Of a DNA stretch of 64,000 nt, positions 15,174 through 61,639 are shown one piece after another. This DNA comes from Pseudidiomarina aquimaris (GTDB lineage Bacteria > Pseudomonadota > Gammaproteobacteria > Enterobacterales > Alteromonadaceae): positions 1 to 64,000 of the forward strand of contig NZ_PIPT01000005.1 in NCBI RefSeq assembly GCF_003987395.1, read 5' to 3'. A model generated the notes under the pieces. That model was given only the letters and a program-made list of their open reading frames with translations. It was not told the origin of the DNA and made no database searches. A program made the translations under genes and the position numbers. Position 1 is the first letter of the stretch, and the number at the start of each line of letters is the position of its first letter.

Positions 15174-15513
<340 letters not shown>

Positions 15514-23824: not shown

Positions 23825-26497
23825 ATGTATACTAATAACAAATTAGCTAAGTCGATCCGCTTAGCTCTTATGTTTGGTGGTGCCTCACTTGCGATGTCAG
23901 GTGCAGCAATGGCACAAGACCAAAACCAAGATCAAGAGCAAGCTGAAGAAGAAGCGCAAGAGCGCATTCAAGTAACAGGTTCACGTATCAAGCGTACCGA
24001 CATGGAAGGTGCTGTTCCTGTAACAGTAATCGACCGTGAAGCGATTGACCTATCTGGTGATATGTCAGTTTCTGACCTTATCCGTAACACAACTTTCAAC
24101 TCTGCTGGTTCGTTCCGTCCGCAGTCTGGTAGTTCAGCTCAGGGTATCGCAACCGTAGGTATGCGTGGTCTTGGCGCATCACGTACCTTGGTACTTGTCG
24201 ATGGCCGTCGTTTGACCATGTCACCTTCAACTGGTTCAAGCCAGGATTTGAACGCCATTCCAATCGGTGCTGTAGAGCGTATCGAAGTATTGTCTGATGG
24301 TGCATCAGCAATCTACGGTTCTGACGCAATCGGTGGTGTAATCAACGTTATCACTCGTAAAGACTACAACGGTGCACAAATCACTTTGGGCGCTGGTGAA
24401 GTTAGCGTACCTAGCGAAGGCGGTGACCGCGAGCAAGGTAGCGTATTGTTTGGTTCTTCTGATGCAAACACTTCAGTATTGGGTGGTGTTTCTTGGAACA
24501 CGCGTGAAATCGTATATGCACGTGCGTACCCTTGGACAGATCCAGGTTCATCAGTTTATGGTAACAACTTCCAATCATGGGCTACTGGCGTAATCCAGCA
24601 AATCCCAGGTGGTTGTTCTGAGCCAAACTTCTTTAACCTTGAAGTGAACGGTGCAACTCGCTGTCAGTTTGACTTTACCTCTACTAACGCGAACGAAGCA
24701 TCTTCTGCTAACGAATCGTTGTTCGTAAAAGTACAGCATCAAATCAACGCTGACTGGACTTTCTTCAGTAATGCTAGCATCGCTGAAACTGAGTCATTCG
24801 GTCGTTACGCTCCAGCCCCTGATTCAAACGGCTTCTACGGCGGTTTGTTACAGAATGCTGACAGCTACAACAACCCAACGAACCCAGATGCGTGGATCTA
24901 CGATCCAAACAACCCTAACGCAGTAGCGTATGACCCAGCCCTCGTTGGTCCTCAGTCAAACGTATACTTCTATCACCGTTTCGCAGCAATGGGTAACCGT
25001 GATACTACTGTAACTAACCGTAACAAAGACTTCTTAGTCGGTTTCACTGGTATGGTTGCAGATCAAGAAGTTGAATTCGGTTATCGTCGTGTTCGTAACA
25101 ACAGTGCTGAAATCGGCGACGGTTACTTGGCAGCAAACACTGCTTGGACCTTCGTAAACGAGTTCAACCCAGGCTACTGTTCAGACGGTTCTTTCGACCC
25201 ATCTGCATGTTACTACGGTTATGACTTGCAATTCCCAAGCCAAAACCCTGCTGACGTATTGGCTGGTGGTGTTGTAACAACTTCACGTATCTCTGACTTC
25301 GACATCGACGAGTACTTCGCAAACACTGCGTTTGACGTGATGGAAACTGAAGCTGGTTTCATCCAAGCATTCGTTGGTTTCGAGCACCGTAAAGAGCGTT
25401 ATCAAGATAAATACGATTCACAATCAGAAGCTGGCCTAGTCGGTGGTTCTGCAGGTAACTCTGCAGGTGGTGGTCGTACTGTAAACGCTGCGTTCTTCGA
25501 GTTGTTGGTTCCAGTAACTTATGACTTCGAATTGAACTTCGCAGGTCGTTATGACCGTTACTCTGACTTCGGTAGCAACTTCTCTCCGAAAGCAAGCTTC
25601 CGTTGGAACGTAACTGAAGACATCGTATGGCGTGCATCATGGGGCCAAGGTTTCCGTGCTCCTAGCTTGGACATCTTGACTCAAGCAACCTCGTTCTCTG
25701 CTGACTCAGTTATCGACCCAGATACTTGTGAAATCTTGACTGGTGATCCAGAAGAATCATGTCAGATCAACGCGTACTATCGTGCTAACCCAGACCTAGG
25801 TGCTGAGGAATCAACTCAGTTCACTACTGGTATCGCGATGAACGTAACTGAAGGTCTGAGCTTCACTTTGGACTACTATGATATCGAGATTGAGAACCTG
25901 ATCACTCAGTTCACTTCTCAAAGTATCCTTAACCTGATCGACTCTGGTGAAACATTGCCGCCGGGTATCGAAGTAATTCGTGACCCTAACACCAATGCAA
26001 TCACTCGTATTAACGCAGGTTACGGTAACCGTGGTATCATCCAGACTCAAGGTTTGGACTTGAACGCACGTATGAACTGGGACTTCGGTTCTGCTGGTGC
26101 ATTGACCAACCAGTTGTACATCAGCCACTTGCTGAACTACGAGTCTGATTCAGGCCGTAACCAAGTACGTGACTACGGTTTGCCACGTCACCGTGCAAAC
26201 TTCAACAACACGTATAACTTGGAAGACTGGACCTTTGCATACAACTTGAACTTCATCGGTTCACAGTACTTTGATTTCGATGAAGACATGAACCGCATCG
26301 GTCACATCGGTTCTTACACCACTCACGACGTACAAGTATCTTACGATACTCCGTGGGACAACAAGTTCACGTTCGGTGTACAAAACGTATTCGAGAAGCT
26401 GCCTAGCTTGCAGTCTCAAGATACTCGTGAGTACAACTACAACTTGTATGATGGTTGGGGCCGCGTCTACTACGTACGTTTCCAACAAAACTTCTAA
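23825..26497 (+). CDS. TonB-dependent outer-membrane receptor, probably highly expressed
   Basis: 890 residues with a signal peptide (about 1-31, ending AMA), a Gln/Glu-rich linker, VTGSRIKRTDMEG, the plug domain (IATVGMRGLGASRTLVLVDGRRL; ASAIYGSDAIGGVINVITRK) and a barrel ending VRFQQNF. The ATG at 23825 has AGGGAGAAG just upstream; a GTG at 23807 is in frame but lies inside the leader hairpin. Codons are strongly biased to CGT, GGT, AAC, GAC, TTC and GTA/GTT, more so than neighbours, which suggests very high expression. Substrate unknown; peptide-rich surroundings make oligopeptides plausible. Confidence 0.94.
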   Translation: MYTNNKLAKSIRLALMFGGASLAMSGAAMAQDQNQDQEQAEEEAQERIQVTGSRIKRTDMEGAVPVTVIDREAIDLSGDMSVSDLIRNTTFNSAGSFRPQSGSSAQGIATVGMRGLGASRTLVLVDGRRLTMSPSTGSSQDLNAIPIGAVERIEVLSDGASAIYGSDAIGGVINVITRKDYNGAQITLGAGEVSVPSEGGDREQGSVLFGSSDANTSVLGGVSWNTREIVYARAYPWTDPGSSVYGNNFQSWATGVIQQIPGGCSEPNFFNLEVNGATRCQFDFTSTNANEASSANESLFVKVQHQINADWTFFSNASIAETESFGRYAPAPDSNGFYGGLLQNADSYNNPTNPDAWIYDPNNPNAVAYDPALVGPQSNVYFYHRFAAMGNRDTTVTNRNKDFLVGFTGMVADQEVEFGYRRVRNNSAEIGDGYLAANTAWTFVNEFNPGYCSDGSFDPSACYYGYDLQFPSQNPADVLAGGVVTTSRISDFDIDEYFANTAFDVMETEAGFIQAFVGFEHRKERYQDKYDSQSEAGLVGGSAGNSAGGGRTVNAAFFELLVPVTYDFELNFAGRYDRYSDFGSNFSPKASFRWNVTEDIVWRASWGQGFRAPSLDILTQATSFSADSVIDPDTCEILTGDPEESCQINAYYRANPDLGAEESTQFTTGIAMNVTEGLSFTLDYYDIEIENLITQFTSQSILNLIDSGETLPPGIEVIRDPNTNAITRINAGYGNRGIIQTQGLDLNARMNWDFGSAGALTNQLYISHLLNYESDSGRNQVRDYGLPRHRANFNNTYNLEDWTFAYNLNFIGSQYFDFDEDMNRIGHIGSYTTHDVQVSYDTPWDNKFTFGVQNVFEKLPSLQSQDTREYNYNLYDGWGRVYYVRFQQNF

Positions 26498-26512
26498 TCT
26501 AGAAGTTACTAT

Positions 26513-26542
26513 AAAAAACGGGACCTTCGGGTCCCGTTTTTT
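26513..26542 (+). terminator. Strong Rho-independent terminator after TonB receptor 2
   Basis: A 7-bp GC-rich stem CGGGACC/GGTCCCG with a TTCG tetraloop, flanked by A6 and T6. Confidence 0.92.
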
Positions 26543-26625
26543 GTTGCTCGCTATTCGCTGTTTGTTGTTTGTTTAAACAAAAAGCGAACGCAGTGAGCGT
26601 GCAAACAGCGAACATCAAACATCGC
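26541..26625. repeat. Heptamer-based palindromic element B (family 1)
   Basis: The arms TGTTGCTCGCTATTCGCTG and the inverse of CAGCGAACATCAAACATCGC flank the module GTTTAAACAAAAAGCGAACG with CAGTGAGCG. The internal module is inverted relative to elements A and G. This copy lies between two convergent genes rather than before a start codon. Confidence 0.82.
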
Positions 26626-26633
26626 TTTCAGAT

Positions 26634-26662
26634 ATAAAAAAAGGCCGCGATATGCGACCTTT
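26634..26662 (-). terminator. Terminator of the methyltransferase gene
   Basis: A minus-strand stem AAAGG-CGC/GCG-CCTTT with one mismatch and a 5-nt loop is followed by a T-rich run. It lies 24 bp beyond the methyltransferase stop. Confidence 0.7.
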
Positions 26663-26685
26663 ATAATGAATCCTATAACAGCAGC

Positions 26686-27660
26686 TTACTTGGTGAGCTT
26701 TAGGGTCCAGCCGAAAGGGGAGCCGTCGATTTCGAGGATGTCCAGCTCGGCGCTTGCACCTTGCTTTTCTGCTGCTTTCACTAGCGCTGTCGCTTGCTTC
26801 TTGTTGAGCGCAGCTTCGAGCTGGTCTTGCAGGCGTAAGCGGTGATCATTAAGCACATGGTATTCATACGCCAGCTGACGTTTGCAGTCATCAAGGTTTT
26901 TAGCGTTCATCACCTCAAAGATACGAGCAATACGGCGAACCACGTCGTTGACGTAATTCAGCTCTTGTGGCTTCGAGAACTTCTCTTGTAGAGCTTTCAT
27001 CATCCATTGAATGCTGCGGGTCAGCACTTGATTGTGCGGATAGTTGGCCCAGCCGTCAGCGCCAATTTGTGGAATCGCCTGACTGGCGAGGTCTAATAGC
27101 ATGTCGCTTTGTTGGAAAAGCGGCGTGTTCTCAAGGATCTCAGTGAGTACGGTCACGCCAACTTTAGAGTCCTTAACTAACGCACTATCCGTATGGTGCA
27201 TCACAGCAACAAATTTACCTTGTGGTTTAAGTTGCTTGATGACAGCTTCTAATGCTTGTTTTTGTGGGGCATATTCAAAGGCGAACTGGGCAATCATGAC
27301 GTCGATAGCGTCGGCGTCAAATGGCATTTTTTCAATCGGTGTTTCGCTGTGAAACTCGATTTTCTTGAGTTTTCGCGCAATTGCCGGAGATTTCTCAAAC
27401 TGTTCAACAGGATTGATCTTTGCGGCATCGATGCCGTGCACAGCAAACTCTTTCTGATTGGTAATGCCAAAGTTCTGCGCTAATAGTGCGAGAGCCCCGT
27501 TACCAGTACCTAAGTCAATAACGGTTGCGCCGCGCGGCACATCCTTTAATTGTTGTTCCCAGAACTTTTGTAAATCACCGGTGTAGCCACTGTTAGCGTC
27601 ACCCTCAGCAAAACTATTGAGCACCCCTGAGGTATGCCAATATTTTGACCAATGTTCCAT
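26686..27660 (-). CDS. SAM-dependent class I methyltransferase
   Basis: 324 residues with a Rossmann methyltransferase core. Motif I is VIDLGTGNGALALLA near 48-62, an acidic HGID follows near 76, and DVMIAQFAFEYAP near 120-132 is the motif IV region. The C-terminal 140 residues are helical and not recognised. The ATG at 27660 has AGGAG upstream; an in-frame earlier start would run into the tRNA gene. Substrate unknown. The region between it and tRNA-Arg is only 32 bp. Confidence 0.8.
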   Translation of the reverse strand: MEHWSKYWHTSGVLNSFAEGDANSGYTGDLQKFWEQQLKDVPRGATVIDLGTGNGALALLAQNFGITNQKEFAVHGIDAAKINPVEQFEKSPAIARKLKKIEFHSETPIEKMPFDADAIDVMIAQFAFEYAPQKQALEAVIKQLKPQGKFVAVMHHTDSALVKDSKVGVTVLTEILENTPLFQQSDMLLDLASQAIPQIGADGWANYPHNQVLTRSIQWMMKALQEKFSKPQELNYVNDVVRRIARIFEVMNAKNLDDCKRQLAYEYHVLNDHRLRLQDQLEAALNKKQATALVKAAEKQGASAELDILEIDGSPFGWTLKLTK

Positions 27661-27692
27661 GTTTACTCCTCTGTGTCGTAACGACAATCTCA

Positions 27693-27769
27693 TGGCGTCC
27701 CCGGCAGGAGTCGAACCTGCGACCTGCCCCTTAGGAGGGGGCTGCTCTATCCAGCTGAGCTACGGGGAC
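27693..27769 (-). tRNA. tRNA-Arg (anticodon CCU)
   Basis: A complete cloverleaf of 77 nt with encoded CCA. The acceptor stem GTCCCCG pairs with CGGGGAC, discriminator G. The D arm contains AGCTCAGCTGGATAGAGC, the anticodon loop is CTCCTAA (anticodon CCU) on a stem CCCC/GGGG, and the T loop is TTCGACT. It reads AGG codons. Confidence 0.97.
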
Positions 27770-27795
27770 CAGTTGAATTCGCTAGGCGCTGAAAA

Positions 27796-29751
27796 TTACT
27801 CAGCGCCAATGTGTTTATCAAAAAACGCTTCTAGGCTTTCATATAACTCAAACCGGTTTTCTTCAATTTGATAGCCGTGGCCTTCGGCTTTGAGCATGGA
27901 TTGGTAGGGAATTCCTTCCTTCTCCAGCGCTTCGGTCAGCGCTTCGTACTGCTCCATAGGCACACGCACGTCTTCAGTACCATGCACAATGTAAAGTGGT
28001 ACTTTAATCTTATCAACATTGTGAGCAGGAGAATTTGCTTTCAAGACCTCCTCATCGGTGCCAAGCACATGGTCTAAGTATCGACGTCCACTTTCGCGCT
28101 TCGGAATATCCCCCCAGCGCTTCATGACAGGCAGACTATAAACCCCCACATATCCCACAGAGCACTGATAGAGATCCGGTTCACGAATAACGCCCATCAA
28201 CGAAGCGTAGCCGCCATAGCTACCTCCGTAGATACAGATACGGTCTTCTGCAGCATAACCTTCCTCAATCGCCCACAAAGTGGCGTCGGTGACGTCATCC
28301 TGCATTTCGCGGCCCCATTTGCCGTAACCCGCTTCCAAGAAGTCATCACCGTAGCCACCAGAGCCGCGGAAGTTAATTTGTAACACCGCATAACCGCGAT
28401 TGGCGAAGAACTGGTTTTCCGGTACAAAGCCCCAAGTATCCCGTGGACCGTGCGGGCCCCCATGGACATTGACGATGGTAGGCAGTGCACCATGTTTATT
28501 CTGGGTGTATCCGTTCGGTAGGGTGAGGTAACCTTGGAGTTCGAGACCATCACGCGCCGTAACTGTAATTGGCTGCACTGTTGCCATATCACTTGCGGCA
28601 ATCGTTGGGTAGGGTGAGGCAATAAATTTAGCCTCTAGTGTTTCCAAATCGAACAGGTAATATTGGCCCGGATTAACGTCAGATGTGACCTGAACCACCG
28701 CTAATTTGCCGTCAGCAGTGGTGCTGGTGATTTCAACTTGCTCTCCACCAAATGCATCGGTAAGCGCTTGCACTATCTCAACGTCCGAGCCATCGGTCAG
28801 ATAGTGACGTTCGATTTTGCCTGGCATTGACTCTACAGCAATTGGGTTACCGTCAGAGCCAAAAATCACTCCAGAAAGATCGGCTATCTCGTTATTGTAG
28901 AGCTGTTTAAACTCTTCCGTGGCGGTATCAAACTGGTATAGCGCGCGTGTTTTGGTGTCAAAGTCAGCGGTTACATAAGCATAGCGATTGTCTTTCGAAA
29001 AGCCGCTAAAGCCCAATGAGCCGCCTTCGTCAAATGCATCAATATGGAATTTTTTCCACTCATCGGACTCATGCGGTTTGTAATTGAGGTAAAAGGTGCC
29101 TTTGCCAAACTCGTCGTCGCTGGTTTCTTCATAGCTAAAACTCGCGCGGAGTTCACCGCTGTTGTCCGCAAGTAACTGGCCCGGTTTATCGGGTTGATCG
29201 TCATGATAGTAAGTGCGGCCATCGTCAACATTCAATTTATGAGCGAACATGCCGCGCTCACCGCCGTAAAGCTTACCAATCAAAATATGCTCTTTATCAT
29301 TTGGTAAGGAACTCAGCATTGTCCAGCCTGACTGTCCCCAACGAATGAGCTCGCGACGATTTGAACCATCGGCATTGGCTGCATATAGGCTTGGTGGTGA
29401 GCCGCGATCATCGAGGTAACCGACGAACTTACGTCCAGTGAAGATGATGCGCTCATCATTCACCCAACGAATATTAGAAAAACGTTGGTACTCTCCAAAC
29501 GAGAACTTACTCGCGAGCTTTTGTTCTTCACGATCAAAAATGAATATCGCGTCATTGATACCTTCGGTCGACTTAATTGCAAAATACTTGCCCGTTGGTG
29601 AAATGATCACGCCGTTATAGACCGGGTGGGTAAAGAAGTCCTGCACAGAGTACTGTTTGACTTCTGGTAGCTGCTCAGCATGTGCTTGTGGCACGGCGAT
29701 AAAAGAACTAGCGCTTAGCGCGAGCCCTAAAGAAAGGATGAAATGACGCAA
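27796..29751 (-). CDS. Secreted S9 family peptidase
   Basis: 651 residues from a TTG start at 29751, chosen because GGGAG lies 6 nt upstream and it gives a clean signal peptide (RHFILSLGLALSASSF, cleavage near AHA). A longer frame to 29868 would add an unconvincing basic tail. Propeller region about 40-390, then hydrolase domain with HGGPHGPRDTWGF, nucleophile GGSYGGYAS, acid HGTEDVRVP and His AEGHGY. It is a paralogue of the enzyme at 18556-20484. It follows rpsT on the minus strand but is separated from it by a terminator. Confidence 0.92.
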   Translation of the reverse strand: MRHFILSLGLALSASSFIAVPQAHAEQLPEVKQYSVQDFFTHPVYNGVIISPTGKYFAIKSTEGINDAIFIFDREEQKLASKFSFGEYQRFSNIRWVNDERIIFTGRKFVGYLDDRGSPPSLYAANADGSNRRELIRWGQSGWTMLSSLPNDKEHILIGKLYGGERGMFAHKLNVDDGRTYYHDDQPDKPGQLLADNSGELRASFSYEETSDDEFGKGTFYLNYKPHESDEWKKFHIDAFDEGGSLGFSGFSKDNRYAYVTADFDTKTRALYQFDTATEEFKQLYNNEIADLSGVIFGSDGNPIAVESMPGKIERHYLTDGSDVEIVQALTDAFGGEQVEITSTTADGKLAVVQVTSDVNPGQYYLFDLETLEAKFIASPYPTIAASDMATVQPITVTARDGLELQGYLTLPNGYTQNKHGALPTIVNVHGGPHGPRDTWGFVPENQFFANRGYAVLQINFRGSGGYGDDFLEAGYGKWGREMQDDVTDATLWAIEEGYAAEDRICIYGGSYGGYASLMGVIREPDLYQCSVGYVGVYSLPVMKRWGDIPKRESGRRYLDHVLGTDEEVLKANSPAHNVDKIKVPLYIVHGTEDVRVPMEQYEALTEALEKEGIPYQSMLKAEGHGYQIEENRFELYESLEAFFDKHIGAE

Positions 29752-29894
29752 AATAAACTCCCATTGACATGCAGCGGCGTCCAAGCCTACTGCATACTTC
29801 CGTTGCTTTAACTTTATTATCGTTTTTATAACAACCTTCAGTTTGCCAGAAAGCGCCGCCAAGGCCAATGCTCTCAGGGATAAAAAGCAGACAT

Positions 29895-29921
29895 AAAAAA
29901 ACCGGCCAAAAGGCCGGTTTT
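29895..29921 (-). terminator. Terminator of rpsT
   Basis: A stem CCGGCC/GGCCGG with loop AAAA, followed on the minus strand by T7. It lies 19 bp after rpsT. Confidence 0.9.
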
Positions 29922-29939
29922 CTCAGAAAGCTAAGAAGC

Positions 29940-30200
29940 TTATAGCGCGTTGATTTTCGCGCTTAGGCGGCTCTTATGACGAGCTGCTTTGTTTTTACCG
30001 ATAAGACCTTTAGTTGCGTAACGGTCAAGAATCGGTTGAAGGCCAGTAAATGCCTGCTGAGCAGCCGCTTTGTCGCCTGCATCGATAGCAGCAATTACTT
30101 TCTTCAATTGGGTACGCATCATTGAGCGACGGCTCGCGTTGTGGCGACGGTTCTTTTCCGCCTGTACCGCACGCTTTTTCGCAGACTTAATATTAGCCAA
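29940..30200 (-). CDS. rpsT: 30S ribosomal protein S20
   Basis: 86 residues, the usual length, starting [20 protein letters not shown] and ending in a basic helix. It binds 16S rRNA in early 30S assembly. The start codon is TTG, as is known for E. coli rpsT, with AGGAG 7 nt upstream. In many gammaproteobacteria rpsT is divergent from the murJ-ribF-ileS cluster, as here; the S23 element is wedged between them. Confidence 0.97.
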
Positions 30201-30281
30201 GGTGAACTCCTAAAATTCGTTAACTATGTGCATTGGTTTTATAGGGCGGGGAATATGCCTGTTTTCGAGGCCAAAGTCAAG

Positions 30282-30714
30282 AGCGTTGTTTGCTATTTGC
30301 TGTTCGTTGTTTGATAAAAGAGGTTATGCTGTTGTTTGCAAGGAGGCAACTATGTACAAGAATTTAAAAGTTTATCAAAGCGCTATGGATTTGTGTGTGG
30401 TAATTTATGAACTCACACGAAAACTGCCGTACGAAGAGCGATACGGGCTGGTTTCGCAGATGCGTCGCTGCGCAGTCTCAGTTCCCAGCAATATAGCTGA
30501 AGGTGCTGGGCGCCGCTCATTTCGGGAACAAGTTAGATTTTATTATATCGCTCGAGGTTCTCTGGCTGAGTTAGAAACACAGCTCGAATTATGTTTTCGG
30601 CTCGGATATATTTGTGAGCAATCGATGATTAACACGAAGCAGACCTACCAATTACTCAATGGACTGATTCGAAGCACTAACCGACGAACAACGAACAGCG
30701 AATAGCAAACAACG
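30282..30714 (+). mobile_element. S23-gene element C: heptamer inverted arms enclosing a four-helix-bundle gene (family 1)
   Basis: The left arm (30284-30312) and right arm (30686-30714) are inverted copies over 29 bp with two differences. They are the same sequence family as elements A, B, F and G. Between them lies one gene, the S23 protein, whose TAG stop is inside the right arm. S23 genes are known from intervening sequences of bacterial 23S rRNA, which are also bounded by inverted arms. This copy is intergenic, between rpsT and murJ. Mobility is inference; no transposase is encoded and no target duplication was identified. Confidence 0.6.
30352..30705 (+). CDS. Four-helix-bundle protein (23S rRNA intervening sequence S23 family)
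   Basis: 117 residues from the ATG at 30352, with AAGGAGG 6 nt upstream. Family signatures are LKVYQSAMDL at the start, RYGLVSQMRRCAVSVPSNIAEG in the middle and RGSLAELETQLEL after it. Members form pentameric helical bundles and are basic; the family includes relatives of the Avd accessory protein of diversity-generating retroelements. No reverse transcriptase is present here. The last residues (RRTTNSE) and the stop codon are encoded by the right repeat arm. Function unknown. Confidence 0.9.
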   Translation: MYKNLKVYQSAMDLCVVIYELTRKLPYEERYGLVSQMRRCAVSVPSNIAEGAGRRSFREQVRFYYIARGSLAELETQLELCFRLGYICEQSMINTKQTYQLLNGLIRSTNRRTTNSE

Positions 30715-30728
30715 AAGTTGAGGCTCTC

Positions 30729-32270
30729 TTGTCTAAATCTCTTATGAAATCTGGGATTATTGTCAGCGCGATGACGCTGATTTCGCGTGTGCTTGGTCTG
30801 GTGCGCGACGTTGTGATCGCGAATTTAATGGGTGCGGGGGCAGCCGCTGACGTTTTCTTCTTTGCCAATAAAATTCCAAATTTTTTGCGCCGATTGTTTG
30901 CTGAAGGTGCGTTCGCACAGGCGTTTGTGCCCGTTTTGACAGAGTACCGGCAGGGTAAGGAGCTCGATGCGCAGCGGCTGTTGATTGCGCGGGTGTCGGG
31001 TACCTTAGGTACACTGGTTACTATTGTGACGTTGGTGGGTGTGATTGCGTCGCCGATTGTCGCAGCGTTGTTTGGTATGGGCTGGTTTGTGGATTGGTAT
31101 ACCGATGGGCCGCAAGGGCATAAGTTTGTGCTCGCGTCTGATTTGCTGCGCATTACCTTTCCTTATTTATGGTTTATTACTTTTACGGCGCTTGCTGGGG
31201 CGGTGCTGAATACGCTTGGTAAGTTTGCGGTGGCGGCGTTCACGCCAGTCTTTCTGAACATTGCGATTATTGTGGCGGCGCTGTGGTTGGGGCCGCAGCT
31301 TGAGCAACCTGAATATGCCTTGGCATGGGGTGTGTTTTTTGGTGGGTTGGTGCAGTTTTTGTTCCAGATCCCGTTTATGAAGCGCGCTGGTTTATTAGTT
31401 CGCCCACAGTGGGGCTGGAGTGACCCTGGTGTCACCAAGATTCGAAAGTTAATGATTCCGGCGTTGTTTGGGGTGTCGGTGAGTCAAATCAATCTGCTTC
31501 TTGATACCTTTATTGCTTCGTTCTTGATGAGTGGTTCGATTAGTTGGTTGTACTATTCGGATCGGTTGTTGGAGTTTCCATTAGGCTTATTTGGGATTGC
31601 GATTGCGACGGTTATTTTGCCAGCGTTGTCTTCGCGTCATGTAGATAAATCAGCCGATGAGTTTAGCCGAACGTTAGATTGGGGCATTCGCAAGGTTGTC
31701 TTACTCGGTTTGCCCGCTATGGCGGGTCTGATTGTGCTGGCAGAGCCGATGTTGATGGTGCTGTTTATGCGCGGTGAGTTTACGCCTGAAGATGCGCGCT
31801 TTGCTTCCTACAGTCTGTTCGCCTACGGCTCTGGTTTGTTGAGTTTCATGTTAGTCAAAGTGCTTGCGACTGGCTTCTACTCGCGCCAAGACACCAAGCG
31901 TCCAGTGAAGTATGGCATCATTGCTATGGTCTCGAACATGGTGTTTAACGTCATTTTTGCGATTCCGTTTGGTTATGTGGGACTTGCCATCGCTACCTCT
32001 CTGTCGGCGGCAGTGAATGCAGGCTTGCTCGGCTACAATTTATGGCGTGATGGCGTGTTAAAACGTTATCCAGGCACGCTGACTTATTTGACCAAAGTCA
32101 CGTTAGCCGTTGTCGCAATGATTGCCTTGCTGCTTTATCTAGGACCGAACCGCGAGTGGTGGCTTGCCGCCGCGTTCATGGAGCGCGTCTGGCAGTTGGC
32201 CATGTTGGTTGGCGCCGGCGCCGGTGTTTTCTTGGTAACGCTGCTCCTGCTCCGCGTCAAAATTCGTTAA
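30729..32270 (+). CDS. murJ: Lipid II flippase MurJ
   Basis: 513 residues, the normal MurJ length, with about 14 membrane helices of the MOP exporter superfamily. The N-terminus has SGIIVSAMTLISRVLGLVRD and FFFANKIPNFLRRLFAEGAF, strongly conserved in MurJ with the essential Arg residues. It moves lipid II across the inner membrane for peptidoglycan synthesis. The TTG at 30729 is preferred, with GAGG 8 nt before it; an ATG at 30744 has no Shine-Dalgarno. The leader begins directly at the right arm of element C, and element D overlaps its last codons. Confidence 0.94.
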   Translation: MSKSLMKSGIIVSAMTLISRVLGLVRDVVIANLMGAGAAADVFFFANKIPNFLRRLFAEGAFAQAFVPVLTEYRQGKELDAQRLLIARVSGTLGTLVTIVTLVGVIASPIVAALFGMGWFVDWYTDGPQGHKFVLASDLLRITFPYLWFITFTALAGAVLNTLGKFAVAAFTPVFLNIAIIVAALWLGPQLEQPEYALAWGVFFGGLVQFLFQIPFMKRAGLLVRPQWGWSDPGVTKIRKLMIPALFGVSVSQINLLLDTFIASFLMSGSISWLYYSDRLLEFPLGLFGIAIATVILPALSSRHVDKSADEFSRTLDWGIRKVVLLGLPAMAGLIVLAEPMLMVLFMRGEFTPEDARFASYSLFAYGSGLLSFMLVKVLATGFYSRQDTKRPVKYGIIAMVSNMVFNVIFAIPFGYVGLAIATSLSAAVNAGLLGYNLWRDGVLKRYPGTLTYLTKVTLAVVAMIALLLYLGPNREWWLAAAFMERVWQLAMLVGAGAGVFLVTLLLLRVKIR

Positions 32271-32395
32271 TCGTTATTCGTGATTCGTCCGCTTTGCTGT
32301 TCGTCCGCTACGCTGTTCGAAAGTGCCCCCCGAACAGTGCAGAGCACGGACGAACAGTGAACGCAGTGAACGTACGAATAACGAACAACGCTTTT
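32265..32395. repeat. Heptamer-based palindromic element D (family 1, long form)
   Basis: The outer arms CGTTAATCGTTATTCGT and the inverse of ACGAATAACGAACAACG match with two differences. The interior has GCTGTTCGTCCGCTACGC and CGAACAGTGAACGCAGTG units shared with element E (61496). It overlaps the last two codons and the stop of murJ and ends about 86 bp before the antitoxin gene. Confidence 0.8.
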
Positions 32396-32405
32396 GATGG
32401 GACTG

Positions 32406-32449
32406 AATTTGGTCCAAATTTAGACCTTTCGCTGAATTAGGGCTATACT
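32406..32449 (+). promoter_or_regulatory. Operator and promoter of toxin-antitoxin pair 1
   Basis: A perfect 7-1-7 palindrome AATTTGGTCCAAATT (32406-32420) overlaps the 5' side of a -35-like TTAGAC (32420-32425). An 18-bp spacer and the -10 TATACT (32444-32449) follow. The placement fits autorepression by the antitoxin encoded 33 bp further on. Confidence 0.6.
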
Positions 32450-32481
32450 CCTAGTTCTTCAAACAGCCATGGAGCTTTGCC

Positions 32482-32760
32482 ATGTATACCGTTAAACGCC
32501 CCCGTGTGACCACCGTTTCTGGGTTTAAGAAAGAAATTGCAACGATGGATGTGAACGAACCTGTTTTGGTAACACAAAACGGGGAGCCGCTGTATGTGGT
32601 GCAAGATCCTACCCAATATGAAGCCATGCAAGAACAAATGGCGATGCTGAAAATGATTGCCCTAGCTGAAAAGGATGTTCGCGCGGGTCGTGTGGTGAGC
32701 CGTGAAGATCTGTTCAAAGGATTGGCAGAGGAGCTCGGGGAAGATGACGATCGCGATTGA
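32482..32760 (+). CDS. Phd/YefM-type antitoxin
   Basis: 92 residues with the Phd/YefM fold: KRPRVTTVSGFKKEIATMD, then EPVLVTQNGEPLYVVQDPTQYEAM, then an acidic C-terminal helix (AEELGEDDDRD) that would bind the toxin. It overlaps the toxin start by 17 bp. The N-terminal half should bind the palindrome at 32406-32420 and repress the operon. Confidence 0.85.
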   Translation: MYTVKRPRVTTVSGFKKEIATMDVNEPVLVTQNGEPLYVVQDPTQYEAMQEQMAMLKMIALAEKDVRAGRVVSREDLFKGLAEELGEDDDRD

Positions 32761-33091
32761 TTATACCAGCCGATTTAAATTACAAACGCGAGATTGGGTA
32801 AAATACCTTTCCCGAGATATTGGATACAGAGCCGCGCAACGCTATGTGGACGACATCCTCGACCGTTTTGAGCTGCGGGTAAGCACATTTCCAAAGGGGT
32901 GCAGCCAATGCGCCGAAAGCGAAGTTGTAGGCTTTGGGCACTATTACGAGTTCATCGATACCAAAGCGCAGGTTCGGATTATCTATCGACTCGTTGAGGG
33001 ACCTGATTTCCATATATCGGCATTATTGTTTCTTCGCACACGACAGAATTTGCGTGATCAGCTATTCAAACTAGTACTAATGACACCCTAG
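32744..33091 (+). CDS. RelE/ParE-superfamily toxin
   Basis: 115 residues, starting at the ATG inside the antitoxin 3' end; an upstream in-frame ATG at 32702 would add 14 antitoxin-overlapping residues. The ParE/RelE-like pattern includes RDIGYRAAQRYVDDILDRFELRV, FGHYYEFIDTKAQVRIIYRLVEG and HISALLFLRTRQNLRDQLF. Probably an mRNA interferase or gyrase inhibitor, neutralised by the upstream protein; which of the two cannot be told from sequence. Confidence 0.78.
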   Translation: MTIAIDYTSRFKLQTRDWVKYLSRDIGYRAAQRYVDDILDRFELRVSTFPKGCSQCAESEVVGFGHYYEFIDTKAQVRIIYRLVEGPDFHISALLFLRTRQNLRDQLFKLVLMTP

Positions 33092-33115
33092 TGTCTGGTG
33101 AGCGTTTAGCGAGCC

Positions 33116-33124
33116 TGTTATAAT
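33116..33124 (+). promoter_or_regulatory. Extended -10 promoter of ribF
   Basis: TGTTATAAT is an extended -10 (TGn plus TATAAT) 45 bp upstream of the ribF ATG and 25 bp after the toxin stop. The -35 (TGGTGA at 33096) is poor, as is usual with an extended -10. Confidence 0.6.
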
Positions 33125-33169
33125 CGCCGCTTTGTTAAACGATTCGCGCAAAGGACCCACAAGGCCCAC

Positions 33170-34138
33170 ATGCAATTCATCCGTGGAATTCACAATATTC
33201 GTGCGCAGCACCGTGGCTGTGTGCTCACTATCGGTAACTTTGATGGTGTCCATTTGGGCCATCAAGCCGTGCTTGCACAGGTGAAGTCGCAAGCGTTGGC
33301 ACGTGGAGTCCCGGCAACAGTGATGACCTTTGAGCCGCAACCGCAAGAGCTGTTTCAACCTGAACGAGCGCCGGCACGTTTAACCAATTTTCGTGAGAAA
33401 CATTTGGCCCTGCGCGCGCAAGGTATTGATCGCCACATCGTGATTGAATTTAATCGGAAGTTCGCAAATTTACCGGCGCGTACCTTTATTGATGAAGTGC
33501 TGGTGAAGCAGCTTGGCGTGCAGTTTTTGGTAGTGGGCGACGACTTTCGCTTTGGCCATGGGCGCGAGGGTGACTTCGCGATGCTGCAACGGGCCGGCGC
33601 CGAACTCGGCTTTGAGGTGGTGGACACGCATAGTTACCGGCAGCAACAACAGCGCGTTAGTAGCACGGCGATTCGTGAAGCATTGAAGCAAGGCGACTTT
33701 GACCAAGCCGCAGCAATGCTCGGTCGGCCTTATGCGTTTGCGGGGCGTGTGGTGCATGGCGAGAAAAAAGGCCGCACCATTGGCTTTCCCACCGCAAATA
33801 TTCAGTTAAAACGGCTGCATTCGCCATTGCAGGGCGTATTTGCGGTGCAGGTGCAAAGCAATGATGGCAAAATGCATGCAGGAGTTGCTAATATTGGCCG
33901 CAGACCAACGTTAAATGGCGAGCAAGTGCAGCTTGAAGTGCATTTGTTTGACTACGAAGGTGACTTGTACGGACAACAGCTGAAAGTGATACCGACGCAC
34001 TTTATTCGCGCCGAGAAAAAGTTCGCCGACTTCGCCGAGCTAAAGCAGCAAATTAGTGCCGACGCTGAAGAAGCGAAAAGGTTACTCGTAGCCCGCAGTT
34101 CTACTGCGGGGGATGCCGAATTGAATAGACATCGCTGA
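33170..34138 (+). CDS. ribF: Bifunctional riboflavin kinase/FMN adenylyltransferase
   Basis: 322 residues. It makes FMN and FAD from riboflavin. The N-terminal adenylyltransferase domain has the nucleotide-binding LTIGNFDGVHLGHQAVL near 19-35 and SSTAIREAL near 164-172. The C-terminal kinase domain has GRTIGFPTANIQL near 200-212 and VANIGRRPTLNGEQVQLEVHL. Family members end near residue 307 here; the last 15 or so residues (ARSSTAGDAELNRHR) are encoded by the REP pair at 34088, which appears to have replaced the native stop. It is in the conserved murJ-ribF-ileS order. Confidence 0.95.
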   Translation: MQFIRGIHNIRAQHRGCVLTIGNFDGVHLGHQAVLAQVKSQALARGVPATVMTFEPQPQELFQPERAPARLTNFREKHLALRAQGIDRHIVIEFNRKFANLPARTFIDEVLVKQLGVQFLVVGDDFRFGHGREGDFAMLQRAGAELGFEVVDTHSYRQQQQRVSSTAIREALKQGDFDQAAAMLGRPYAFAGRVVHGEKKGRTIGFPTANIQLKRLHSPLQGVFAVQVQSNDGKMHAGVANIGRRPTLNGEQVQLEVHLFDYEGDLYGQQLKVIPTHFIRAEKKFADFAELKQQISADAEEAKRLLVARSSTAGDAELNRHR

Positions 34139-34175
34139 AACGTAAAGCTTTACCCGTGGTAGAACCACGGGCTAC
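34088..34175. repeat. GTAG-REP inverted pair, copy 2 (family 2)
   Basis: An 88-bp element. The left unit (34088-34110) begins GTAG and folds as CCCGCAGT-TCT-ACTGCGGG. The right unit (34153-34175) folds as CCCGTGGT-AGA-ACCACGGG and ends CTAC. The 42-bp spacer contains CCGAATTGAATAGACATCGC, similar to the spacers of the other two copies. It overlaps the 3' end of ribF and abuts the half element H. Confidence 0.9.
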
Positions 34176-34176
34176 T

Positions 34177-34234
34177 GCGCTTTTTGTTTAAACAAACAGC
34201 AAACAGCAAATAGCAAACAACGCTTTTAGATCTT
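34177..34234. repeat. Truncated heptamer element H (family 1, half)
   Basis: Only the central GCTTTTTGTTTAAACAAAC and the right arm (CAGCAAATAGCAAACAACGC, then TTTTAG) are present. The left half is absent and a REP pair sits in its place. It ends 56 bp before ileS. Confidence 0.78.
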
Positions 34235-34289
34235 AAATATTGAGCTAGACAACGGGGCTAATAAGGGCCTCGAAAAAGGAACCCAAACA

Positions 34290-37142
34290 ATGACCGACTA
34301 TAAACACACGCTGAATTTACCGGAAACCGAGTTTCCGATGCGTGGCAACTTGGCTCAACGCGAGCCGCAAATGTTGCAGCAGTGGTATGCCGATGACGTG
34401 TACGGCAAGGTGCGCGTTGCGAAAGCGGGTAAGCCAGTGTTTATTTTGCACGACGGACCTCCGTATGCAAACGGTCAGATTCATATTGGGCACGCCGTTA
34501 ATAAGATTTTGAAAGACGTGATCGTAAAAGCGAAAACGCTAAGCGATTTCGATGCGCCTTATGTGCCGGGTTGGGACTGCCACGGCTTGCCGATTGAGCT
34601 GCAAGTTGAAAAGAAACATGGCAAGCCTGGCAAGAAATTGTCAGTCGCTGAATTTCGTGTGAAATGCCGCGAGTATGCGATGGGGCAGGTCGAGCAACAA
34701 CGCGAAGACTTCAAACGCTTAGGCGTGTTTGGCGATTGGGATAATCCTTATCTGACCATGAATCCAAAGCAAGAGGCGGACAGCATCCGTGCGCTAGGTA
34801 AAATCATTGCCAATGGTCATCTGCAGCAAGGCTTTAAGCCGGTGCATTGGTGTACGGACTGCGGTTCGGCGCTTGCTGAAGCGGAAGTTGAATATCAAGA
34901 CAAGCGCTCGCCAGCGATCGACGTTGATTTTGTTGCGGTTGATGAAGCGCAGTTAGTAGCGGCCTTTAATCATCCGCAAGGCCATGCCGGTGAAGGTGAA
35001 GTGAGCGTGGTGATTTGGACAACCACACCTTGGACCATTCCGGCAAACCGCGCAATTTCGTTGCATCCTTCATTGGAATACACCTTGGTGCAGGTTGAAG
35101 CGACCGACGAGCGTCCGGCACAACGGTTTGTGTTGGCGGACGAGTTAGTTGAGTCAGCGATGGCGCGTTGGAACATCGATGACTATCACAAGTTAGGTTT
35201 TGCCAAGGGTGCCGATCTGGAAAACATGAAAGTGCAGCATCCTTTGTTTGCCGACGTGCAAGTGCCGTTGATTCTTGGCGAGCACGTTACGACTGAATCA
35301 GGTACGGGCTGCGTTCACACCGCGCCTGGCCACGGTGTTGATGACTTCTTGGTTGGTCAGCGCTACGGCATTGAGGTTTATAACCCGGTAGGCGACAACG
35401 GTGTTTACAAAGAAGACACGCCGATGTTCGCTGGCCAGCACGTAATGAAGGCTAATGACAACATTGTTGAAGCGTTAAAAGACGCTGGGCGCCTAGTTCA
35501 CCACGAGGCCTACAATCACTCGTACCCGCATTGCTGGCGCCATAAAACACCGATTATTTTCCGTGCGACGCCACAGTGGTTTATCAGCATGGACAAGCAA
35601 GGTCTCCGCGCCAAGGCATTAGAGCAAATTAAGCAAGTGCGTTGGGTTCCAGAGTGGGGCCAAAGCCGCATCGAGAGCATGGTTGAAGGACGCCCTGATT
35701 GGTGTATCTCGCGTCAACGTACTTGGGGGAACCCAATTGCGGTGTTTGTGCGTCGTGACAATGACGAATTGCACCCGCGCACCCTTGAGTTGATGGAAGA
35801 AGTCGCCAAACGTGTCGAAAAAGATGGCATCCAAGCGTGGTTCGATCTGGACGCAAAAGAGTTGCTTGGTGATGAAGCTGACGACTATCGCAAAGTCACT
35901 GATACCTTGGATGTTTGGTTTGACTCGGGCGTGACCCATGAAGCGGTGTTGAACAAGACGCCTGGTTTGCAGTGGCCTGCCGATCTTTACCTCGAGGGCT
36001 CCGACCAGCACCGTGGCTGGTTCCAGTCGTCGTTGTTGACGGGCGTAGCGATGTATCAAGAAGCGCCTTATCACCAAGTGCTGACCCATGGTTTCACCGT
36101 TGATGGCCAGGGTCGTAAGATGTCCAAGTCGATTGGTAACGTGGTTGCGCCACAAGAAGTCATGAACAAGCTGGGTGGCGATATCTTACGTTTGTGGGTG
36201 GCAGCAACGGACTACTCAGGCGAGATGACGGTTTCTGACGAAATCTTAAAGCGCTCGGCCGATAGCTACCGTCGTATTCGCAATACCGCGCGTTTCTTAT
36301 TAGCAAATATCAATGCTTTCGATCCGGCGAAGCATGCAGTTGCTGCCGATGAGATGGTGGCGATGGACCGTTGGATCGTTGCACGAGCTGTGGCGCTGCA
36401 AGAGGAACTCTTGGAAGCTTACGATAACTACCAGTTCCATGTGGTAGTGCAAAAACTCATGCACTTCTGCTCGATTGAACTGGGTAGTTTCTATCTTGAC
36501 GTGATTAAAGACCGTCAGTACACCGCTAAGCGTGACAGTGTCGCACAGCGCTCATGTCAGACTGCGTTGTACCACATTGCAGAGCTGTTGGTGCGTTGGT
36601 TGGCACCGATTTGTAGCTTTACCGCACAAGAGATCTGGACCGCGTTGCCGCAGCATGATGCGAAAGGCCAGGCGCGCAGTGAGTATGTATTCACTGAAGC
36701 GTGGTACCGTGATGCAGCGCACATTGCGGTGAGCGATGCTGATAACGCCTTCTGGCAGCAACTGTTAGAAGTGCGCGATGCCGTTAACCGAGCTCTTGAA
36801 CAAGCGCGCCGCGATGACGTGATTGGTGGTTCGTTGCAGGCCGAGTTGAACTTGTATGCAAATACTGACCTCGCTGCGCAACTTGAACGGTTAGGTGATG
36901 AATTACGCTTTGTATTACTTACCTCAGCGACGCAAGTGCAAGCAGTTGAAACAGCCCCAGAGGGCGCTGTTGCAACAGATGTGAAAGGCTTGTGGGTCAA
37001 AGTAAGTAAGTCAGCCAACGAAAAATGTGAACGCTGTTGGCATCACCGCCCTGAAGTGGGCAGCATTGCTGAGCATCCAACCTTGTGTCAGCGCTGTGTG
37101 ACAAATGTCGATGGTGAAGGTGAGGAGCGCCGTTTTGCCTAA
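34290..37142 (+). CDS. ileS: Isoleucyl-tRNA synthetase
   Basis: 950 residues, class I synthetase charging tRNA-Ile. The HIGH motif is in [15 protein letters not shown] (near 58-72), the editing domain CP1 at about 190-390 has [16 protein letters not shown] is in [10 protein letters not shown] near 610, and a C-terminal zinc-binding domain has CERCWHH and LCQRC. Full length for the E. coli-type IleRS. The lspA start lies inside its last codons, so the two are coupled. Confidence 0.98.
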
Positions 37143-37650
37143 ACAACCCAAACCTGATTTCAACAAGCGTACCAGCGGGCTGCAGTTTCTGTGGCTCTCG
37201 CTGCTGCTCATTATTATTGACCAAGCAACCAAGCAATGGGTGCTCAGTGCGTTCGATCTCTACGAAAGTATTGAGATCATGCCGTACTTGAACTTTACCT
37301 ATGTGCAAAATTTCGGTGCTGCGTTTAGTTTTCTAAGCGATCAGAGCGGCTGGCAACGTTGGCTATTTACTGGCTTAGCGATTGCCGTGAGTGTTATTTT
37401 GCTGGTGTGGTTGCGACGTAATCCAGTCGGCATGTGGCGGCAAAACCTCGCGTTTTCACTGATCCTTGCCGGTGCTGTGGGCAACGTCATTGACCGCTTG
37501 GTTTACGGTTATGTCATCGACTTCATCGATGTCTACGTAAATAACTGGCATTGGCCGGCATTCAACGTCGCCGATATGGCCATCACCTGTGGCGCCGTTT
37601 TAATGTTACTCGAAGCTTTCTTTGAACAACGTCAGGAGCAACGCGCATGA
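37135..37650 (+). CDS. lspA: Lipoprotein signal peptidase II
   Basis: 171 residues with four membrane helices. The catalytic aspartates are in [15 protein letters not shown] and FNVADMAI. It removes signal peptides from prolipoproteins. The TTG at 37135 is chosen because GAGGAG lies 9 nt upstream; an ATG at 37105 has no Shine-Dalgarno and would add ten residues. The start overlaps the ileS stop, the usual ileS-lspA arrangement. Confidence 0.94.
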
Positions 37651-38084
37651 TCAGCCGTCTACCGATCGAACATGGTCGGGAAGTGATTCTGCATTTCACC
37701 ATCAAATTGACCGATGACTCAGTCGCCGACAGCACCAAAATGTCAGGCAAACCGGCGAAGTTTCGCATGGGCGATGGCTCATTGACGGAGAACTTTGAAA
37801 GTTGCTTAGTTGGCCTCAAGGCCGGTGACGAACGTGAGTTTGAACTCGCACCTGAAGACGCTTTTGGCGAACCGAACAAAGACAACTATTATCAAGTGGA
37901 AACGCAAAAGTTTGCCGAATTACCAGAAGTTGGCCAAATCTTTACCTTCCCACAACCGGATGGTACGGAACTTCCTGGTATAGTGCGGTCAATAAACGAA
38001 CAGTTTGTGACGATTGATTTTAATCATCCGTTAGCGGGCCAACGGGTCCGCTTCGCAGTCGAAATTATTGAGGTAAATCCCTAA
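37647..38084 (+). CDS. fkpB: FKBP-type peptidyl-prolyl isomerase, SlpA/FkpB type
   Basis: 145 residues of the small cytoplasmic FKBP family with an inserted chaperone flap. VILHFTIKLTDDSVADST, FRMGDGSLTENFESCLVGLKAGDE and PEDAFGEPN are characteristic. The start ATGA overlaps the lspA stop. The lspA-fkpB-ispH order is conserved in gammaproteobacteria. Confidence 0.94.
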   Translation: MISRLPIEHGREVILHFTIKLTDDSVADSTKMSGKPAKFRMGDGSLTENFESCLVGLKAGDEREFELAPEDAFGEPNKDNYYQVETQKFAELPEVGQIFTFPQPDGTELPGIVRSINEQFVTIDFNHPLAGQRVRFAVEIIEVNP

Positions 38085-38087
38085 AAA

Positions 38088-38176
38088 CAGTTGTTTGCTA
38101 TTCGCTGTTTGTTGTTTGTTTAAACAAAAAGCGAACGCAGTGAGCGAGCGAACAGCAAATAGCGAACATCGCTTTT
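38088..38176. repeat. Heptamer-based palindromic element F (family 1)
   Basis: Arms 38090-38111 and 38149-38170 match at 18 of 22 positions in inverted orientation. The centre GTTTAAACAAAAAGCGAACG with CAGTGAGCGAGCG is the same as in element B. It ends about 15-18 nt before the ispH ATG, with GGTTGGAG in the gap. Confidence 0.85.
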
Positions 38177-38191
38177 AGGGTTGGAGATTTT

Positions 38192-39133
38192 ATGGATATT
38201 GTGTTGGCGAATCCGCGGGGTTTTTGTGCCGGTGTTGACCGTGCAATTACCATCGTTGAGCGCGCGCTAGAAATTTTTGAACCGCCCATTTATGTGCGTC
38301 ATGAAGTGGTCCACAACAAATATGTGGTGGATTCATTGCGCCAGGCTGGCGCGGTATTCGTTGATGAGCTTGAGGAAGTGCCTGACGATAGCATCGTGAT
38401 TTTTTCAGCACATGGGGTATCTCAAGCAGTGCGGCAAGAAGCCAAAGACCGTGGCCTGAAAGTCTTTGATGCGACCTGTCCACTTGTAACGAAAGTGCAC
38501 ATGGAAGTAACGCGGGCGAGTCGCAAAGGGCACGAATGTGTGTTGATTGGTCACCAGGGGCACCCAGAGGTCGAGGGCACCATGGGGCAATACTCGAATG
38601 CGCAGGGTGGTATTTATCTGGTGGAGTCGGTCGCTGATGTGGCTAAGCTTGAGGTGAAGAACCCGCAACAACTTCATTATATGAGCCAAACCACGTTGTC
38701 GGTAGATGATACGGCCGATGTGATTGATGCGTTGCGCGCGAAGTTTCCCAAGGTGCAAGGGCCACGCAAAGACGATATTTGTTATGCCACGCAAAACCGA
38801 CAGGATGCAGTGCGTGACTTAGCTGCGGAAGTTGATTTGTTATTAGTCGTCGGCGCCCGTAATAGTTCTAACTCGAATCGACTGCGAGAGCTTGCCGAAA
38901 AAATGGGAACGCCGGCCTATTTGATTGATGACGCGACCTGTATTGACCGTGCCTGGCTCGACAATGTGGAGCGTGTGGGGGTTACGGCTGGCGCTTCAGC
39001 GCCTGAGATTTTGGTCAAAAATGTGATCAAGCAGCTGCAAGATTGGGGTGGGGCGACTGTGAACGAGCGCAGCGGTCGTGAAGAGAATATTACGTTCTCG
39101 ATTCCACCAGAGCTGCGCGTTGTCGAACTTTAA
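38192..39133 (+). CDS. ispH: 4-hydroxy-3-methylbut-2-enyl diphosphate reductase
   Basis: 313 residues, final step of the MEP isoprenoid pathway, making IPP and DMAPP. The three [4Fe-4S] cysteine ligands are in [11 protein letters not shown] (Cys12), [11 protein letters not shown] (near 96) and SSNSNRL-adjacent [10 protein letters not shown]-type context with the conserved Cys of [11 protein letters not shown] (near 196). His motifs [12 protein letters not shown] and [16 protein letters not shown] are present. Length is typical. The leader carries element F. Confidence 0.97.
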
Positions 39134-39148
39134 CTCGAGATTTTACTT

Positions 39149-39535
39149 TTAACGTTCCCAGCACTCCGCTGGGGACTTCTGGTCATTCTGATTAAGCGTA
39201 ATAGTCGTGCAGCCGGTGTCGTTGGTTTGGCCTCCGGTGGCGGTTGCGGTCAAAGTATAGGTTTCAGCGCCAACATTACTGACCGAAAACGTATAATAAT
39301 CACTGCTCAAAGTAATACCTAAGGTTGCGATATCTGCGTAGCTGGTATTCTTCAACCGATACTCTTCTTGTGCCATCTGCAAGGTTAACAGTTGTCCCAT
39401 GGCATCGGCGCGCCGTGCTTCGCGCACATAGTCAACGAAGTTCGGGTAGGCAATGCCCGCAATGATGCCGATGATGACCACGACAATCATGAGCTCGATG
39501 AGCGTCATCCCCGCCTGCTTTAATTTTACTTGCAT
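39149..39535 (-). CDS. pilE: Type IV pilin PilE-like
   Basis: 128 residues with a short basic leader (VKLKQAG) cleaved before MTLIELM, Glu5 of the mature pilin present, a hydrophobic N-terminal helix, then a small globular domain with two Cys (DTGCTTIT and AECWER) that would form the C-terminal disulphide loop. It would be processed by PilD and assembled as a minor or PilE-type pilin. It faces away from the fimT operon across 92 bp and converges with ispH (15 bp apart). Confidence 0.88.
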   Translation of the reverse strand: MQVKLKQAGMTLIELMIVVVIIGIIAGIAYPNFVDYVREARRADAMGQLLTLQMAQEEYRLKNTSYADIATLGITLSSDYYTFSVSNVGAETYTLTATATGGQTNDTGCTTITLNQNDQKSPAECWER

Positions 39536-39564
39536 TTGTTTGCCTTGTCGTAAAAGATGAATTT

Positions 39565-39595
39565 TTGCACTACACTGTAGTGAATAAACTATAAC
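39565..39595. promoter_or_regulatory. Palindrome and promoter between pilE and fimT
   Basis: A 6-3-6 palindrome CACTACACTGTAGTG (39568-39582) overlaps TTGCAC (39565-39570). A -10-like TATAAC (39590-39595) follows at 19 bp. It sits between divergent pilin genes, so it could be an operator for both. No regulator can be named. Confidence 0.45.
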
Positions 39596-39627
39596 TAAAT
39601 AGATACGCTATTTTTGGCAATTTCGCA

Positions 39628-56181: not shown

Positions 56182-56197
56182 AAAATCCTTAAGAGCC

Positions 56198-61490: not shown

Positions 61491-61495
61491 GAAAA

Positions 61496-61627: not shown

Positions 61628-61639
61628 TTGGGGTTTTTG

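Follow-up and report, generated by a model that had tools for sequence, protein, structure and literature searches.

A gene for an S23 (four-helix-bundle) protein, enclosed by inverted arms of seven-nucleotide units, probably belongs to a family of stem-bounded S23 elements as the copy that bears the gene; the S23 protein would keep or spread the gene-less derivatives in trans. The gene lies in the window, which here means the whole stretch of DNA analyzed, 64,000 nucleotides from Pseudidiomarina aquimaris. The anatomy of the element is established computationally, as are the match between its two arms, the association between the gene and dispersed heptamer repeats, the match in heptamer flavor between the two, and the recurrence of the same design in many phyla, together with one 23S insertion. 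The heptamer sequence itself is free. What is usually kept is the period of 7 (sometimes 8), the complementarity of left and right arms, and an excess of G over C in the left arm.

The original prediction, made from the sequence alone, had described 29-bp inverted arms with two differences around a single S23 gene whose TAG stop lies inside the right arm. Both points are borne out. Re-reading of 30284-30312 and 30686-30714 gives inverted copies with 2 mismatches over 29 positions, and the TAG occupies 30703-30705. Repeat finding lengthens the arms to 30277-30311 and 30687-30721 (35 nucleotides, 89% complementary, 31 of 35 matching). The parts of the element are these:

30277 to 30311, plus strand: left arm, four degenerate heptamers CGTTGTT TGCTATT TGCTGTT CGTTGTT.
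30340 to 30346, plus strand: Shine-Dalgarno sequence AAGGAGG of the S23 gene, found by reading the sequence.
30352 to 30705, plus strand: S23 (four-helix-bundle) gene, 117 amino acids, net charge +6.
30687 to 30721, minus strand: right arm, which pairs with the left arm and contains the S23 stop.

The encoded protein matches Pfam PF05635 with E = 1.5e-37 (128.5 bits against a curated cut-off of 33.8), TIGR02436 with E = 1.5e-34 (118.5 bits against a cut-off of 24), and the solved structure PDB 2gsc with E = 3.2e-25. Between the arms, S23 is the sole gene and PF05635 the sole family match; no transposase family, and no Y1 (HUH) transposase, was matched there. The genome (G000) holds one PF05635 gene. 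As RNA, 30277-30721 folds with a z of -5.8 and is closed by a stem of 4 + 30 pairs, so that the terminal inverted repeats form a long stem, as in a 23S rRNA intervening sequence. The element sits between rpsT and murJ, not within an rRNA gene; Rfam, run over 25000-40000, found no rRNA, a tRNA being the sole match.

The same units recur across the window. Runs of at least three degenerate heptamer units number 8 in the window and 0 in 10 Markov-shuffled windows, one of which held two two-unit runs. Gene-less arm copies had been predicted near 11988, 26541, 38088 and 62648; all are there, with further ones at 32260, 34195, 56197 and 61492. The copies and arrays are as follows, with a strand where one was assigned:

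11988 to 12074: gene-less hairpin of about 90 nucleotides, its loop common with those at 26535, 38085 and 62648.
15377 to 15510, minus strand: long single tandem array (CGAACAT)n, from repeat search.
26535 to 26625: gene-less heptamer hairpin, from repeat search and alignment.
32260 to 32395: heptamer hairpin of the CGTTATT/CGTCCGCT type; G007 and G021 have an apparent remnant at the corresponding position.
34176 to 34254: one-armed heptamer element, absent from the aligned place in G007 and G021.
38085 to 38191: gene-less heptamer hairpin between an fkpB-like open reading frame (37647-38084) and ispH (38192-39133).
56197 to 56238, plus strand: six-unit single array CGTTRTT, from a search for degenerate-unit runs.
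61492 to 61629: heptamer hairpin of the CGTTATT type, from repeat search.
62648 to 62735: gene-less heptamer hairpin, from run search and alignment.

The name ispH is assigned from a LYTB match; the reading frame upstream of it we take to be fkpB. In an alignment of five gene-less copies, four have two arms around one and the same loop, AAACAAAAAGCGAACGCAGTGAGCG, and two of these four are reversed. The remaining copy is missing an arm and some of the loop. Arms and a non-repeat loop are common to the copies, which are therefore copies of one element and not separate slippage products. These dispersed hairpins of about 90 nucleotides appear to be gene-less derivatives with arms like those of the S23 element, and with arms and loop in common the predicted pairing of a gene-bearing form with gene-less relatives stands.

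A second system of dispersed repeats adjoins the first. An 88-nucleotide pair of palindromes ending in GTAG lies at 34088-34175, and again at 56240-56327 and 126-208, with many copies in G007 and G021; it looks like the classical REP/BIME of a RAYT system, and G000, G007 and G021 have one Y1_Tnp gene each. These palindromes abut heptamer repeats at 34175 and 56240. An attC/integron reading of the repeat at 34088 was dropped, because the paired palindromes end in GTAG. At 32482-33091, adjoining a heptamer hairpin, a gene for a Phd/YefM-type antitoxin (PF02604, 3e-9) is followed by an overlapping small reading frame that has no Pfam match. Longer inserts of the type CGTGCGCTTCGCTGTT are found in the heptamer arms of several genomes with S23 of clade II (L002-L006, L017), and in the window at 32260 and 61492.

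Within the genus, 17 of 26 genomes carry the S23 gene, exactly one each; that of G003 is truncated (model positions 51-103) and is counted as a carrier. Three of the genomes are incomplete: G017 (88%), G018 (77%) and G020 (86%). Every one of the 17 genes adjoins rpsT, just past a native sequence, AAAGTCAAG, that is present in gene-lacking genomes too. Comparison of empty and filled sites, which had been proposed along with the original prediction, was made here. Among the genomes that lack S23, seven have an rpsT locus that can be read (G007, G008, G011, G014, G015, G021 and G024), and none of these has a two-unit heptamer run in the 280 nucleotides beside rpsT; in G007, G021 and G014 the rpsT neighborhood is also different. 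At the filled sites, 16 of 17 loci reach an arm score of 13. The arm sequence varies among species, left and right arms match within each element, and the order of units is identical in the two.

The S23 proteins fall into two clades that conflict with the species tree. In the tree of S20 plus MurJ (24 of 26 genomes, with G018 and G020 left out), G006 groups with G024 and G013 on a starred branch. In the S23 tree, which left out G003, the proteins of G006 and G013 belong to different clades (supported at 98/95 and 93/86). The simplest reading of this conflict is that S23 alleles at rpsT have been replaced in place. The tree implies six gains or losses of the gene, four of them forced by starred branches. 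One fixed locus thus holds different S23 alleles, so the gene is not visibly jumping now; the comparisons made revealed no transposition event, target duplication or intermediate.

Repeats were then counted over whole genomes with a degenerate three-unit heptamer pattern, the counts being of overlapping matches rather than sites. All 17 carriers have between 40 and 561 matches, whereas seven of the nine non-carriers have 1, 1, 1, 1, 1, 2 and 3 (Mann-Whitney p = 1e-4, kinship ignored). The exceptions are G007, with 106, and G021, with 53. These two are the nearest kin of G000 (273 matches) on the tree; around rpsT they are rearranged, and at the place of the 32260 hairpin they have what seems to be a remnant. 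Both probably lost the S23 gene recently, with hairpins that would be eroding slowly. Were the truncated S23 of G003 not counted, that genome (140 matches) would be a third exception. The expectation that arms are not equally common where S23 is absent thus holds in seven of the nine gene-lacking genomes and fails in the two that keep repeats. In this genus, neither of the two outcomes named beforehand as refuting the prediction was observed.

Reading the pattern backward, as a control, gives 0-49 matches in the genus, the high values being in carriers: 49 against 133 forward in G016, 34 against 117 in G023, 16 against 40 in G009, with 38 in G001 and 22 in G002. Independent pairs on starred branches number only four; three go the same way and one shows no difference (p 0.25). 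In samples of 37-164 kb from 24 genomes, period-7 arrays reach 11 per 100 kb in carriers, against 0-1 arrays for periods 5, 8, 10 and 11; the 100-kb samples of the carriers G004, G009 and G023 held no period-7 arrays. Neighboring arrays are of opposite polarity in a preferred sense, 46 "+-" pairs against 4 "-+" pairs as computed from array rates.

In a second genus of 99 genomes, the median is 15 matches in 82 carriers and 4 in 17 non-carriers (p = 3e-4). Genomes with zero matches make up 7 of the 17 non-carriers and 6 of the 82 carriers, ten of the 17 non-carriers retaining some repeats; the backward pattern gives 0 in all 99. The link between gene and repeat is thus well supported in one genus and weaker in the second. 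The direction of cause is something we infer; association alone gives none.

A more specific connection is one of flavor. In G012, G017 and G022, dispersed hairpins of about 89 nucleotides have as their consensus the four heptamers of the genome's own S23 arms, and copies from separate sites have 83-96% identity, compared with 82-86% between most of the orthologous stretches. The junction of fkpB and ispH allows a comparison at one place. Of 17 carriers 14 have heptamer repeats there, and of 7 non-carriers none does (Fisher p = 3e-4, kinship ignored), the carriers that lack them being G009, G016 and G023. The repeat at the junction scores 25.4 against the arms of its own S23 and 15.3 otherwise, a difference equalled in 0 of 10,000 permutations and holding when G012, G017 and G022 are collapsed into one. 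By eye, 11 of the 14 hairpins are of own flavor; by score, the own arm is best or within 2 of best in 9 of 14. In G005, G006 and G019 the junction has another flavor, nearest to the arms of other species, which may be a fossil of an earlier S23 allele.

A clean insertion at this junction, with the TAATG overlap of G007 as the ancestral state, was considered and rejected. G008, G009 and G024 have a short spacer there whose ribosome site resembles the one in genomes that bear the hairpin, which leaves gain and loss indistinguishable. By eye, the junction has no obvious target-site duplication.

Across named S23 loci from many phyla, flanks of up to 10 kb hold 85 clusters of own-arm copies, against 10.9 when permuted (maximum 54 in 5000). 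This count used 42 of 80 loci; L290 and L247 supply 43 of the 85 clusters, and 16 of the 42 loci have no own-arm copy. Own arms are strictly best at only 4 of the 42, owing to ties, and the permutation was relied on instead. Below 60% identity, with GC removed, S23 similarity correlates weakly with heptamer profile (partial Mantel r = 0.136, a value reached in 3 of 2000 permutations; 88 of 152 rows used).

The design of the element is itself widespread. Inverted arms scoring at least 14 occur at 58 of the 80 named loci, as against a single one of 334 geometry-matched controls. Of these 58 loci, 56 are periodic at 7 or 8, and 54 have a left arm richer in G than in C. The loci with no arms above the cut-offs number 22 of the 80 named, 14 of 26 at order level and 7 of 29 at phylum level. 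Left arms score far better with their own right arms than when crossed: 30.4 against 13.6 at the 17 loci of the genus, 16.2 against 8.2 at 55 order and phylum loci, and 16.8 against 7.9 at 79 of the 80 named loci. Autocorrelation in the flanks of Pseudomonadota S23 loci (72 of 75 fetched) is in greatest excess at lags 7 (z 10.9) and 14 (8.6), then 28 and 21, lag 17 (z 4.1) being the sole other above 3. The 80 named loci give lags 7, 14, 21 and 28, with a small excess at lag 8 (z 2.9) that comes from octamers in some Bacteroidota and Cloacimonadota. By eye, octamer arms replace heptamer arms at L240, L250, L282, L284, L285 and L299, in these two phyla; a few named loci have a second S23 gene.

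Plasmids carry the design as well. An S23 relative is present in 22 plasmid records, 21 of them cyanobacterial by name; 12 of the 22 were surveyed, without a control set, and of these 12, 11 have arms scoring at least 14 and nine are periodic at 7. In the cyanobacterial plasmids L360, L364 and L366, S23 genes lie inside rows of cas genes, either between cas6 and cas4 (type I-D) or between cas10 and a cmr3-like gene (type III-B). A phage collection gave no S23 match at E 1e-5.

In G374, two identical S23 genes with heptamer arms lie inside 23S rRNA genes, while two others are intergenic. This heptamer-armed rRNA form, beside intergenic S23 genes in one genome, supports the kinship with 23S rRNA intervening sequences that had been claimed, and it is what would favor an intervening sequence that escaped to an intergenic site. 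The two copies in G374 are, however, the only ones in 23S among 184 S23 locus sequences searched, and armed intergenic forms are common; rRNA is therefore more likely to be one of the places where the element has landed. The claim of an rRNA insertion that has moved is, as worded, not supported; the reverse direction is simpler, and an escape from rRNA is very improbable.

How does the element compare with known systems? In REP/RAYT systems (the REPtron), a palindromic repeat is dispersed in the genome and also stands, as inverted copies, on either side of a single-copy gene. Here too, dispersed palindromic copies match the flanks of the S23 gene, but S23 matches no transposase family, and the repeat sequence is free, with only period and pairing kept. 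The gene-less copies are like MITEs in being non-autonomous, with terminal inverted repeats resembling those of a coding parent; unlike the parent of a MITE, this one encodes S23 and no transposase.

The published systems are compared from excerpts of the papers cited. The 23S rRNA intervening sequences of Leptospira and Coxiella (PMC4990558) have an S23 reading frame and a long terminal stem, as does the window element, and in Coxiella tandem heptamers GACAGAT are reported before the reading frame. Unlike them, the window element has protein genes on both sides, and gene-less relatives of it are scattered through the genome. Bacterial heptameric simple repeats resemble it in their tandem 7-nucleotide units. 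The heptamers of Xanthomonas and Nostoc, GGGAATC and GGGGA(C/T)T, are described as mostly intergenic and, in Xanthomonas, often as convergent inverted pairs (PMC4692102, Rehm et al.). These appear to be the same kind of repeat: the S23 arms of Xanthomonas vasicola are of GGGAATC type, with one exact GGGAATC unit per arm and variants. The arms of Nostoc plasmid S23 genes (GGGAGTA, GGGAACA) differ from the published Nostoc heptamer. That paper interprets its heptamers as G-quadruplexes, whereas most flavors in the genus of the window have no G-tracts, and the G-quadruplex was rejected as a general principle on that ground. The TAACTGA heptamers of Beggiatoaceae (PMC4679880), intergenic and present in several unrelated bacteria, are reported as direct repeats, which sets them, by description, against the inverted arms here. 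The terms "S23" and "four helix" occur in neither PMC4692102 nor PMC4679880, and in the open-licence literature, outside which most subscription journals lie, no link between S23 and dispersed heptamers is found among the matches listed.

What, then, might the protein do? Net charge is positive for 57 of 72 S23 proteins in one set and 63 of 80 in another, and in three close species the gene is under purifying selection (pN 0.015-0.018, pS 0.075-0.21). S23 is related to Avd (PHROG 3206, E = 7.8e-10), at 24 bits against the NCBIfam Avd model, below its cut-off of 80; 2gsc, the solved S23 relative, is a homopentamer (PMC4990558, excerpts). Given charge, purifying selection, and kinship to Avd and 2gsc, recognition of the arms by the S23 protein is plausible. 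To our knowledge S23 contains no recognized catalytic domain, and any copying must therefore fall to a different enzyme. Neither a Y1 transposase nor a reverse transcriptase can be a required partner, judged by distribution: searches found no Y1_Tnp in 6 of the 17 carriers, among them G001 and G012, which have the most heptamer matches, and no RVT_1 in 13 of the 17, G000 among them.

The preferred reading, an S23 element family acting in trans, would work as follows. The S23 protein would recognize its own stem, as RNA or as DNA, in heptad register. This recognition would let hairpins be copied, conserved or re-templated in trans by host enzymes, possibly by template switching of the host polymerase at the stem or by an RNA-mediated route. 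Where S23 is lost, hairpins would erode; where its allele is replaced, their flavor would shift slowly.

Those who prefer regulation to mobility might see instead a domesticated network, in which hairpins are sites of mRNA processing, termination or stability, S23 is an RNA-binding regulator with autoregulatory arms of its own, and selection keeps the flavor match. A single S23 copy per carrier at a fixed site fits this, as do purifying selection on the protein, a hairpin inside the lspA-fkpB-ispH gene row, and hairpins at orthologous places in G012, G022 and G017 (where covered), in stretches 82-86% identical. Against it stand the at least four gains or losses of S23 on the tree and a fkpB/ispH junction that has no hairpin in non-carriers; S23 elements in 23S rRNA genes and in cas rows are also better fitted by insertion than by one regulon. 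Such a network is rather unlikely.

It is quite improbable that S23 is a passenger on hairpins moved by a RAYT/Y1 transposase or a reverse transcriptase. Dispersed palindromes with one gene-bearing copy are, of course, typical of REP/RAYT, and G000 does have one Y1_Tnp gene. Avd, the S23 relative of diversity-generating retroelements, acts with a reverse transcriptase (PMC10053308, excerpts). The same absences of Y1_Tnp and RVT_1 from carriers tell against this, and they also separate the element from a diversity-generating retroelement. Polymerase slippage that makes heptamers, into whose arrays S23 genes merely insert, would suit arrays that are single and perfectly tandem, as at 15377-15510. 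It does not suit a non-repeat loop common to copies, the inverted polarity (46 against 4), the identical unit order of left and right arms, or background heptamer counts in 7 of 9 genomes without S23, and it is the least credible of these accounts.

A wider proposal is more tentative, and we give it somewhat less than even credence: that bacterial heptamer repeats are largely a footprint of the S23 family. Here, allele-specific reading of 7-nucleotide stems would drive the copying and re-templating of hairpins genome-wide, with no dedicated transposase or reverse transcriptase, and 23S intervening sequences would be the form that landed in rRNA.

Excerpts of the literature show what this touches. 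One account gives S23 proteins no known function and, 25 years after the S23-bearing rRNA insertions were discovered, still calls it unclear what these do and where they come from (PMC4990558). Among longer simple repeats, heptanucleotides are reported to be the commonest class in many bacterial genomes, and slippage, G-quadruplexes and translational control have been offered as explanations (PMC4679880, PMC4692102). Two unexplained things, S23 genes and the 7-base repeats of bacteria, are tied together here, and a genus in which gene, repeats and flavor covary is a ready test of both puzzles. If S23 acts in trans, a protein that is not a nuclease would be shaping many intergenic hairpins in each genome.
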